Source: Desulfosediminicola ganghwensis (GTDB taxonomy: Bacteria > Desulfobacterota > Desulfobulbia > Desulfobulbales > Desulfocapsaceae). Taken from it: a DNA stretch of 64,000 bases. The notes under the pieces were generated by a model. It saw nothing but the letters and a program-made list of their open reading frames with translations. It had not been told where the DNA came from and searched no databases. Positions within the stretch are counted from its first letter, which is position 1; the number at the start of each line of letters is the position of its first letter. The translations under genes and the position numbers were made by a program. Below, in pieces: positions 38,521-43,609 of this stretch. Location: NCBI RefSeq assembly GCF_005116675.2, contig NZ_CP050699.1, forward strand, positions 5,589,001-5,653,000, given 5' to 3'.

Positions 38521-40653
38521 ATGCAACAGCGAATTCAACTCACCGCGATACAACAGCTTTCCTCGACAAGCGTCAACCCCAAGCAGCTTGACCAACCGAC
38601 TGAGGGCCACATCCGGCTCAAGGTGCTCTATTGCGCCATCTGTCGCACAGATGCCAAGATGTGGAAAAGTGGTCATCGCGATCTGAAACTGCCGAGAGTA
38701 CTCGGTCATGAAGTGGCGGCGATCAATGAAAGCAGCGGTGAGTTGTTTACCATCTGGCCGGGCCAGGCCTGTTGGAAATGCAGCTATTGCCTCAACGGAC
38801 GAGATAACCTCTGTGAAGAGATGAAAATCATCGGGTTTCACTCTGACGGGGGGTTCAGCAGTTGGCTTGATGTTCCCAACCGTTCACTCATACCGGCAGA
38901 AGGCATACAAGATCCCAGACTGTTGGTCTTTACCGAACCCATCGCCTGTGTTCTCCATTGCCTGGCAACGCTCAACATCTCAGGCCGGGAACGTGTCATT
39001 ATTTATGGCGGTGGAACCGTAGGACTCCTCACCGCCCTGGCCTGCCAGGTCCGGGGTTGCATGGTTACTGTTATCGAACAAAGTGAAGAGAAGATAGCGA
39101 AAACGACACCATTCACCTCCACCCACCAAATTGCCGTGGTGAAAGATACCGTGGATAGCGATTTTGATCTGGCCATCAACTGTTGTGACAGCCCGATCGC
39201 CTGCGCACTTTGCATCACCAAGTTGAAAAAAGGCGGCAAACTTGGTTTTTTCTCCGGCCTCAAGAAAAATGAGGAGTTGGACACAAACCTCCTGAACCTA
39301 CTACATTATAAAGAAAATCAGCTTATTGGCAGTTACGGCCCTACCAGGGCAGACATGTTCGAGGCTGTCAAATTCTGCAGGCTGCACGGGGAAGGGCTGC
39401 TCCTTCTTATTGAAAAGTTTTTAACGGCTGAAGACGCTGCCTCGGTAATGCCCGCAATAGCAGATGGCAACGCGCTGAAATATGTTCTCGATTTCAGCTC
39501 AGATACAACCACGTCTACTACATTTTCACCCGGCCCACCTGCCAGGGCCGTTCCTTCTACCAGCAACCAGTCTGCCGCCAACTCCCTGCTCTCCCTGCCA
39601 CTGACCAATCTCATCCGGAAGATTCAGCCGCTGTCTGAAGAAATACGGACAGCAGCTCAAAAGAAAATTGACATGAAGACCAAGCCTCTTGGGGCCCTCG
39701 GCAAGATAGAGCGACTCGCCGTCAGGATTGCCGCCATCCAGTCCAACCTCATGCCTCGCATCGAGAATAAACAGATGGTCGTCTTTGCAGGAGATCACGG
39801 AGTAGTGGAGGAAGGTGTTTCCGCGTATCCGTCCAAGGTAACCAAACAAATGGTCGAAAACTTTCTCGATGGCGGAGCCGCGATCAATGCCTTTTGCCGA
39901 CAGTTTGACATTAGTCTCAAAGTGGTCGATATGGGAGTCAAGGGGCAATTCGCCGCCCACCCATTGCTCATTCATGGCAAGGTGCGGGAGGGTACCAGCA
40001 ATTTCACCCTGCAGCAGGCCATGACCATAGAAGAAGCTGTTGCGGCTATGGAGGTAGGCGCGCAAGTGTTTTCTAAAATACTTGATGCCGGCGGGTGCGA
40101 CGTAATCGGCCTTGGTGAAATGGGTATTGGCAATACCAGCTCCGCTTCGGCGATAATCTCTCTTATTACCGGAACTCCTGTGGCGGAGCTGACCGGGCGC
40201 GGCACAGGGGTAGACAACAAAGGGTTAGAGCGAAAGATAGAGGTACTTGAAAAGGCACTCCACCTGCACAGGCTAAAGCCTCATCAACCGATAGAGATTC
40301 TCGCCGCAGTAGGCGGCTTTGAACTCTGCGGCATTGCGGGTTGCGTTCTTGCAGCCGCAGCCCATGGCAAATGTGTTGTCCTGGATGGACTCATATCCAC
40401 AGCAGCCGGACTTGTCGTTTACCAGATCTGTCCTGATGTCGGTCCATACCTTATCGCTGGACATCGCTCAGTGGAGCAGGGGCAGATCGCAGCCCTGCAA
40501 CACATGAATCTTCACCCGGTAGTGGACATGGAAATGCGTCTCGGAGAGGGTACCGGCGCAGCCCTCACCATCAATATGATAGAACTTGCAGCACGGGTAA
40601 TGCGAGAAATGGCAACATTTGAAGAAGCAGGTATAGAAGCCGTTCACCGTTAA
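38521..40653 (+). CDS. cobT: Zinc-type dehydrogenase fused to CobT phosphoribosyltransferase
   Basis: The 710-residue protein joins two enzymes. Residues 1-330 are a medium-chain zinc dehydrogenase: catalytic-type Cys38 and Cys41, GHE at 62-64, structural zinc Cys84, Cys87, Cys90 and Cys98, and a Rossmann GGGTVG. A Ser/Thr/Pro-rich linker (about 335-365) leads to CobT, nicotinate-nucleotide:lower-ligand-base phosphoribosyltransferase, with FAGDHGVVEEGVSAYP, GLGEMGIGNTSSASA, TGRGTG and the catalytic Glu676 in MRLGEGTGAAL. CobT activates the base that becomes the cobamide lower ligand. A fused oxidoreductase could prepare or modify that base. One open frame with no break supports a genuine fusion. 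Confidence 0.9.
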   Translation: MQQRIQLTAIQQLSSTSVNPKQLDQPTEGHIRLKVLYCAICRTDAKMWKSGHRDLKLPRVLGHEVAAINESSGELFTIWPGQACWKCSYCLNGRDNLCEEMKIIGFHSDGGFSSWLDVPNRSLIPAEGIQDPRLLVFTEPIACVLHCLATLNISGRERVIIYGGGTVGLLTALACQVRGCMVTVIEQSEEKIAKTTPFTSTHQIAVVKDTVDSDFDLAINCCDSPIACALCITKLKKGGKLGFFSGLKKNEELDTNLLNLLHYKENQLIGSYGPTRADMFEAVKFCRLHGEGLLLLIEKFLTAEDAASVMPAIADGNALKYVLDFSSDTTTSTTFSPGPPARAVPSTSNQSAANSLLSLPLTNLIRKIQPLSEEIRTAAQKKIDMKTKPLGALGKIERLAVRIAAIQSNLMPRIENKQMVVFAGDHGVVEEGVSAYPSKVTKQMVENFLDGGAAINAFCRQFDISLKVVDMGVKGQFAAHPLLIHGKVREGTSNFTLQQAMTIEEAVAAMEVGAQVFSKILDAGGCDVIGLGEMGIGNTSSASAIISLITGTPVAELTGRGTGVDNKGLERKIEVLEKALHLHRLKPHQPIEILAAVGGFELCGIAGCVLAAAAHGKCVVLDGLISTAAGLVVYQICPDVGPYLIAGHRSVEQGQIAALQHMNLHPVVDMEMRLGEGTGAALTINMIELAARVMREMATFEEAGIEAVHR

Positions 40654-41378
40654 CGAAAATTTCCCGTTTATACTCCAAAAAGAAACCTTCTGAATAGGTC
40701 TTGTCTATCGACCAGACAGCAACAGGTCTTTTAATGTCTTGAATCAAATATTGTCAGGATAGTATTCGACAGTCCCCATCGATACATTGTGCCATAGAAA
40801 AATACCGCACAATCGCCACAACACCACCCCTGCCTTCCCAACCAGGTTCAACAGCAAAAGATGGATAATATTGGGTCATCATTGGGTTTATATCAACCAA
40901 TCAGAGACAAATCTGACACGCCAATCAGGCCGAAATTTACGGGACTACTACATTGTAGGTATTCGAAATTCCAGAAATAGAAACGGTCGGAACATATTAC
41001 CAATTCAAGATAATTCTACGGTAAGCCTTTACCAGTAATAGCATTATTGGTGATACCAATATGCCTTTACTGTTTTAAACGCCGTTTTTTTTGCATTGGT
41101 ATGTATTTTGAGGTATACGAACGAAGTGGTTTATGTTAGCATATGCTCCATTTGGTACCACTACGTCGCGCACGACTTTGTCGCATCCGACAATGTAGCA
41201 TTTTTTTCAGTTGGTGCAACAAAGTTTTATCGAATATATGCAGAACCGGGCCTTAGTTTTCCGGAGCCGGATTTTTGGTGCCAGGCCCGCGAATTGCTCG
41301 ACAGATTTAGATTACATGTGCAGTGCGAGACTGCACTCGAAGAGTTGTTACGGAAAATATACGAACGGGAATGAAACG
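40654..41378. other. 725-bp gene-free region before the DUF1641 gene
   Basis: A/T-rich compared with the neighbours, with no supportable gene. Short open frames here have no ribosome site or family likeness. It likely contains the promoter for the DUF1641-sqr operon. No strong sigma-54 site was found. Confidence 0.5.
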
Positions 41379-42146
41379 ATGAACGAAGCTTTGATTCTGG
41401 AAAAGTTGGACAACCTTGCAAGCGAAATTCAGTCGCTGAAATCAGAAGTGCAGGCTTTTAAGGACGCAAAGCCAGTGCCCGCCACTTCCGCACAACCGGC
41501 TGTTTCTGCATCTGTCCCAATGCTCGCCAAATTCGATGGCAAATACAATGAGAAGGATCTTGACTGCCTGGTCGAAAACCTGCTGATCAGTGTCAACGAC
41601 ATTAACTCCATGCTCTTTAAAATGAAGGCTGGTAACGAGTTGTGTCGCGACATCGAGCCCATTGCCCATCAGGTTTACCCACATCTCATCAAATTCCTTT
41701 ACGAGATTGAAGGAGCCGTTACCCTCACCGATTTCGAGGCACTGCTGAGAAATCTGCTGATCAGTGTACCTGCCATGAACGAAGCTCTTGGCTTCCTCCG
41801 TGCCGGTATCGAACTGACAGACGATCTCATGCCTGTCGCCAAGATTGTCTATCCGAAGGTAATTGTGGCGCTTAACGAGCTGCAGCAAGCCATCGACAAC
41901 TCTGGTGGTATCATCAAAGTTGTGGGAGCAGCCGCTTCCAACGTCAAGGAATTCACCATCTCCGAGGAACAGGCTGAAGAGATCATCAAAGTGATGAACT
42001 CTATTAATCTTAACAACATCAAGCCAGTATCACCTATTGGAGCTGTTAAACAACTCATGAATCCGGATGTCCAGAAATCACTTGGCGCAGCATTTATGAT
42101 GCTTCAGTCCATGGGTGCCTGTGTTCAGATCATGCAGAAAAAATAA
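41379..42146 (+). CDS. DUF1641 protein preceding the sulfide:quinone oxidoreductase
   Basis: The 255-residue protein has a short coiled start (ALILEKLDNLASEIQSLKSEV), an Ala/Pro linker (about 29-45) and two similar segments, LLISVNDINSMLFKMKAGNELCRDI and LLISVPAMNEALGFLRAGIELTDDL, the internal repeat of DUF1641. Such genes commonly lie beside sulfide:quinone oxidoreductases and formate-dehydrogenase-type genes; the role is unknown, maybe as a membrane-associated partner. Start at 41379, since the longer frame from 41211 has no start signal. Confidence 0.82.
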   Translation: MNEALILEKLDNLASEIQSLKSEVQAFKDAKPVPATSAQPAVSASVPMLAKFDGKYNEKDLDCLVENLLISVNDINSMLFKMKAGNELCRDIEPIAHQVYPHLIKFLYEIEGAVTLTDFEALLRNLLISVPAMNEALGFLRAGIELTDDLMPVAKIVYPKVIVALNELQQAIDNSGGIIKVVGAAASNVKEFTISEEQAEEIIKVMNSINLNNIKPVSPIGAVKQLMNPDVQKSLGAAFMMLQSMGACVQIMQKK

Positions 42147-42236: not shown

Positions 42237-43460
42237 ATGAAGAAGTTAGTCATTCTCGGTGCCGGTTGCGGTGGCACCATGATGGCGAACAAAATGAGGA
42301 ACCACCTGGGTGATGACTGGTCTATCACCATCATCGATCGTGATAACAATCACGATTATCAGCCAGGCTACCTCTTCGTACCGTTCGACATCAATAAACC
42401 AAAGGATATCAGGCGAACCAAGAAAGAGTTCATGAATCCCGGAATTGACTTTGTTATCTCCGAGATTACCAACGTGGACTGGAATGCGCAGGAAATCACC
42501 ACTGCCACCGAAGGTAAGTTCTCCTATGATATCCTGATCATGTCCACCGGCTGTGATATCAAACCTGAAGAAGTTGAAGGCCTGAAAGAAGGCTGGGGTA
42601 ATGATATTCACGGTTTCTACCGTTACGATGATTCCATCGCCCTGAACAAAGCTCTCAAGCAGTTCAAAGGCGGTAAGCTCGTTGTGAATATAGCAGAGAT
42701 GCCTATCAAGTGTCCTGTTGCTCCTCTTGAGTTTGTATTCCTCGCTGACTGGTGGTTCCACACCCAGGGCATCCGTGAAAAAGTCGAAATCGAGTTTGTC
42801 ACTCCGCTTTCCGGCGCTTTCACCAAGCCTGTTGCCACCAGAATTCTCACCGAGGCGTGTGAGCAGAAAAACATTAACATCACCCCGAACTTCGCTCTCG
42901 GTTCAGTAGATCCTGAGAAGAAGATTATCGAGGCGTGGGACGGAACCCAGGTCAACTACGACATGCTGGTCTCCATTCCGCCCAACTTCGGTGCTGATGC
43001 AATGATCGACTCAGATGTCGCCGACCCGATGGGATATATTCCTGTCGACAAGCACACCCTGCAGCCTGCCGGATATGACAATGTCTGGGTACTTGGTGAC
43101 GGAACTGATGTTCCTACCTCCAAGGCTGGTGCGGTAGCGCACTTCCAGGGTGATATTCTCGAAGAGAATATTATGGCGTACATCGAAGGCGGTGAACAAC
43201 ATGCCCGGTCCGACGGGCATGCGGTCTGATTCATTGAATCAGGCTTCGGGAAAGCCTACATCATCGATTTCAACTACGACACTCAGCCATTCACCGGAAA
43301 CTATCCGCTGCCAGCGGTAGGTCCACTCGGTCTTTTGAAAGACACTGAGATGAACCACATTTCCAAGCTGATGTTCAAATGGGTTTACTTCAACATGCTG
43401 CTCAAGGGCACCTGGCTCGGACCGCCAGCTCTTGACATGAGAGGCAAATGCGTTGAGTAA
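42237..43460 (+). CDS. sqr: Sulfide:quinone oxidoreductase, selenocysteine-containing (UGA read-through)
   Basis: This FAD enzyme oxidises sulfide and reduces menaquinone. The N-terminal part shows the dinucleotide motif VILGAGCGGTMMANKM, the catalytic-type Cys in MPIKCPVAPLEF (about residue 160) and NVWVLGDGTDVP. Translation meets TGA at 43227-43229 (codon 331), but the same frame continues for 76 codons, FIESGFGKAYIIDFNYDTQP to MRGKCVE, then TAA at 43458. Relatives have Cys here (DGHANCFIE), so UGA replaces a conserved redox Cys. A six-pair hairpin (43241-43257) 11 bases after UGA is a SECIS candidate. A strong terminator follows. The full 407 residues match the family length. Confidence 0.85.
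43227..43257 (+). promoter_or_regulatory. In-frame UGA with candidate bacterial SECIS hairpin
   Basis: The UGA is followed after 11 bases by AGGCTT (43241-43246), a five-base loop CGGGA and AAGCCT (43252-43257). Position and size fit bacterial SECIS elements, whose apical loop usually carries G or GU; here the loop has G but no U. A second small palindrome, TGATTC-ATT-GAATCA, overlaps the UGA. Confidence 0.65.
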
Positions 43461-43495: not shown

Positions 43496-43532
43496 AAGCG
43501 GCGGAATCAGAAATGATTCCGCCGCTTTTTTT
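43496..43532 (+). terminator. Strong terminator after sqr
   Basis: A perfect 14-bp stem (43496-43509 with 43514-43527) with a GAAA loop is followed by a T run. It lies 36 bp after the TAA at 43460 and not directly after the UGA, supporting read-through of the whole gene. Confidence 0.93.
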
Positions 43533-43609
43533 GTTTTAGGATACAACTCATCAGCTGCTCTGGATAAGAGCAGCCAGTCGCTTCAGGGAAACCCGGAATT
43601 GCCAAAGCT

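Follow-up and report, generated by a model that had tools for sequence, protein, structure and literature searches.

A predicted selenocysteine at a catalytic cysteine position of a sulfide:quinone oxidoreductase homologue in Desulfosediminicola ganghwensis

The sulfate reducer Desulfosediminicola ganghwensis carries a gene for a flavoprotein of the sulfide:quinone oxidoreductase (SQR) group in which an in-frame UGA, at codon 331, is very probably decoded as selenocysteine (Sec) by means of a SECIS hairpin, SelB and tRNA-Sec. The gene was encountered in a stretch of 64,000 nucleotides of contig NZ_CP050699.1, here called the window. The Sec-containing SQR of this organism is already published and belongs to an already named family, NCBIfam NF049943. 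According to the 2025 deep-Sep paper, an NAD(P)/FAD-dependent oxidoreductase is a new selenoprotein in D. ganghwensis IMCC35004 and D. flagellatus IMCC35005 (PMC12013277), and a 2026 review that cites deep-Sep equates this selenoprotein with NF049943 and its HxxU motif (PMC13188914). The identity of the window gene with the selenoprotein of that paper rests on genome, family and motif: the match to the family is full-length, the genome and the HxxU motif are the same, and no difference was found, so that the gene is to be regarded as already known. An initial sequence-only reading of the window, which held that no Sec-containing SQR had been described, was therefore wrong on this point, as the selenoprotein had been published in 2025 (PMC12013277) and the family has been named by NCBI. 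What is added here is modest, namely the pattern of two origins of Sec within the SQR family and synonymous-site evidence for the SECIS element.

Reading frame and protein family

From the ATG at 42237 the frame meets a single TGA and then continues through 76 sense codons to a TAA at 43458-43460 (Table 1). Every coordinate that the sequence-only reading had given for this frame, its lone UGA at codon 331 and its 76-residue C-terminus holds, and a GC-rich inverted repeat with a run of T behind it, as read from the sequence, begins about 36 bp past the TAA, where that reading had placed a terminator.

Table 1. Features of the SQR locus in window coordinates, and masked runs in two further loci
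Feature	Position	Strand	Remark
Sec-containing sulfide:quinone oxidoreductase gene (NCBIfam NF049943)	42237..43460	+	407 aa, the UGA being translated as Sec (predicted)
In-frame UGA, codon 331	43227..43229	+	column of invariant Cys; aligned to Cys379 of human SQOR
Cys159 codon, partner redox Cys (predicted)	42711..42713	+	unchanged in every row; aligned to Cys201 of human SQOR
SECIS-like hairpin region	43236..43257	+	stem-loop 43241-43257; codons 334 and 336-340 synonymously invariant in Sec clade
Intrinsic-terminator-like inverted repeat and T run	43496..43534	+	read from sequence
Upstream ORF, DUF1641 at C-terminus	41211..42146	+	true start perhaps further in
7,500-N masked runs at expected selA site	L090 8502-16001; L091 9002-16501

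The encoded protein matches NF049943.1 with 664.5 bits over model positions 1-405 of 406, the curated cut-off being 525 bits, and it is the sole match above that cut-off in the D. ganghwensis genome among the matches listed. NCBIfam names the family 'type III sulfide quinone reductase, selenoprotein subtype', and the HxxU motif is present as HAVU, with the TGA of codon 331 at the position of U. Because Cys-type members of the family also score above the cut-off, the match alone is no proof of Sec. 'Type III' is NCBI's naming; by sequence, the closest solved structure is that of human SQOR (PDB 6oi5, 8dhk and others), the best PDB match with E ~1e-48 over residues 4-399.

Within this alignment Cys159 and residue 331 pair with residues 161 and 339 of the SQOR chain; the interval of 178 equals that between Cys201 and Cys379, the two cysteines that form the catalytic trisulfide of the human enzyme (PMC12589024). 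Both columns are invariant across all aligned relatives when Sec is counted as Cys, and the remaining cysteines vary. The suggestion that the UGA lies at a redox cysteine, and hence in the active site, is borne out to the extent that the codon aligns with catalytic Cys379, and the alignment supports the presence in the window protein of both predicted redox-active positions of SQR, Cys159 and Sec331. The two proteins are thus homologous over residues 4-399 with both catalytic positions aligned, whereas the window protein differs from human SQOR in having a predicted Sec for the second Cys, in being bacterial, and in the DUF1641 gene that adjoins its own.

Conservation of the UGA and of the hairpin behind it

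Among the 38 genomes searched, D. ganghwensis included, 14 (again counting its own) contain a full-length copy whose only TGA is at the same codon, and SQR fragments occur in a few further genomes. The full-length relatives at 65-90% identity keep this single TGA with the frame open on both sides, which goes beyond what chance would bring. The full-length homologues also comprise 25 Cys-type rows, all with Cys at the UGA column, so that the expectation of a UGA falling on a conserved Cys was confirmed; every full-length relative has either UGA or Cys at column 331. TGC or TGT stands at this codon in paralogues and in less closely related copies, where the surroundings read, for example, DGHANCFIE, the motif that had been attributed to relatives and that does exist, for instance in L023. 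Cys-type homologues from the same phylum (e.g. L023, L032 and L043) are about 47-57% identical to the window protein, share the residue pair and mostly have a DUF1641-like neighbour as the window gene does, but they have TGC or TGT in place of its TGA, and no common conserved hairpin was found in the Cys-type genes. One genome (G027) has, in addition to a Sec copy, tandem Cys-type SQR paralogues (L031) that are 55% and 32% identical to the window protein.

The hairpin that the sequence-only reading had noted 11 bases past the UGA was recovered as AGGCUU-CGGGA-AAGCCU, with a stem of six base pairs. The clade to which the window gene belongs consists of 16 rows representing 15 distinct genes (L056 duplicates L009). 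Of its degenerate codons, 179 encode an amino acid that never varies within the clade, and synonymous variation is lacking at just six of these, namely codon 334 and codons 336-340, the latter spelling the hairpin GGCTTCGGGAAAGCC. If all positions are taken as equally likely, the chance that the six invariant codons should all fall there is 1/C(179,6) = 2.4e-11. As judged from the aligned genes, the synonymous invariance of these codons is the mark of a SECIS element. Folded as a single sequence, the hairpin has only a moderate advantage over shuffled versions (z -1.74), and an Rfam search with it gave no match. The loop, CGGGA, is without GU; GU is typical of the loops of bacterial SECIS elements.

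Selenocysteine machinery and the origins of Sec

The genome of D. ganghwensis encodes a tRNA-Sec (75.4 bits; anticodon TCA by ARAGORN), SelB (385 bits) and two SelD proteins (L041 and L042), each of whose genes has an in-frame TGA of its own. The check for Sec machinery thus had a positive outcome for these three components and not for SelA, for which two models gave no match in this genome (G000) and which was likewise not found in G003. In G002, a TPR gene, a LOG-family gene and pilT follow immediately after selA, and in G001 the same neighbourhood is preceded by a masked stretch; selA is present at that place in two further genomes of the genus. In G000 and G003 the TPR, LOG and pilT genes were found, and 7,500 N stand before the TPR gene, removing its start. 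As the expected site, at about 3.922-3.930 Mb of the D. ganghwensis genome, sits within the N run, the absence of selA from the sequence most likely results from masking. The masked run is probably a neighbouring rRNA operon, which would fit with the location of selA in several related assemblies, merely 200-550 bases from a contig end. The view that the missing SelA points to some other route to Sec-tRNA was considered and rejected, as SepSecS (TIGR03531) is absent as well, the selA site is masked, and selA is present in two congeners.

A rival reading is that translation truly ends at the UGA, or that the UGA arose by nonsense mutation, leaving a truncated protein of 330 residues or a pseudogene; the standard code does read UGA as stop. 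Against this stand the retention of the UGA at an identical position in the full-length copies of 14 genomes, counting D. ganghwensis itself, even where identity falls to 65%, a C-terminus that is intact and conserved in those copies, the RNA-level constraint on the codons past the UGA, and the tRNA-Sec, SelB and SelD of the genome, which together render a genuine stop very improbable; the pseudogene reading is rejected from the relatives, with their shared TGA and their open frame on both sides. A sequencing error at 43229 has an even smaller, practically negligible probability, as no point in its support was found and independent assemblies, checked at this base, have the identical TGA, which refutes it.

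In the family tree Sec copies turn up twice, once in the window's clade and once in a clade belonging to family f20, and a constraint that joins all Sec rows is rejected (AU p = 7e-7), a result that leaves room for one early gain followed by losses and that comes from a tree made less certain by the long branches of L070 and L031. The hairpin of the f20 Sec clade, CGAGAAGG-GGUC-CCUUCUCG, is situated 17 nt past the UGA, and therefore differs from that of the window's clade both in sequence and in its distance from the UGA (17 nt vs 11 nt). Because the hairpins of both clades are unlike, two gains of Sec are favoured. Moreover, three Cys rows are nested in the f20 Sec clade, and one of these, L050, has a strong hairpin about 20-40 bases past its Cys codon, much like the SECIS-like one found in the related Sec genes, which is what a recent replacement of Sec by Cys should leave behind. 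We consider it likely that Sec was gained at least twice at the same SQR catalytic site, with different hairpins, and that some members of the second clade reverted to Cys, L050 keeping the hairpin.

Genomic neighbours and proposed reaction

The gene just upstream of the window SQR encodes a protein with DUF1641 at its C-terminus, and its homologues precede SQR in almost every member of the window's clade and follow it in most of the other cases. The recurrence of this gene beside SQR suggests that the two proteins may work together. Elsewhere in the window, a 710-aa ORF (38521-40653, + strand) has an odd domain composition by Pfam and NCBIfam, in which a zinc-type alcohol dehydrogenase (~28-285) is fused to a CobT-like domain (~368-705), that is, nicotinate-nucleotide--dimethylbenzimidazole phosphoribosyltransferase.

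It is conceivable that the protein is a selenoprotein whose physiological reaction is other than sulfide:quinone reduction, e.g. persulfide or polysulfide turnover involving a different donor or acceptor. In favour of this reading, the organism reduces sulfate, the protein is named differently by NCBI (sulfide quinone reductase) and by deep-Sep (NAD(P)/FAD-dependent oxidoreductase), and the literature searched yielded no assay of any member of the Sec clade. Nevertheless, both catalytic cysteines of SQOR are aligned and invariant, and the best solved match is human SQOR itself, so that a different reaction seems rather unlikely.

We propose that, in this flavoprotein of the sulfide:quinone oxidoreductase group, UGA 331 would be translated as Sec by SelB and tRNA-Sec with the aid of the SECIS hairpin that lies 11 nt past it. 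Sec331 would occupy the place of SQOR Cys379, facing the sulfur-acceptor channel, and would form with Cys159 a redox pair adjoining the FAD, as a selenosulfide; a bridging sulfur might be held between the two residues, like the trisulfide of human SQOR. The protein would oxidise sulfide with the reduction of quinone, and selenium may bring some kinetic benefit. Having Sec at the residue that carries the sulfur in an SQR is of chemical interest, since it may entail a selenosulfide or an Se-S-S bridge beside FAD.
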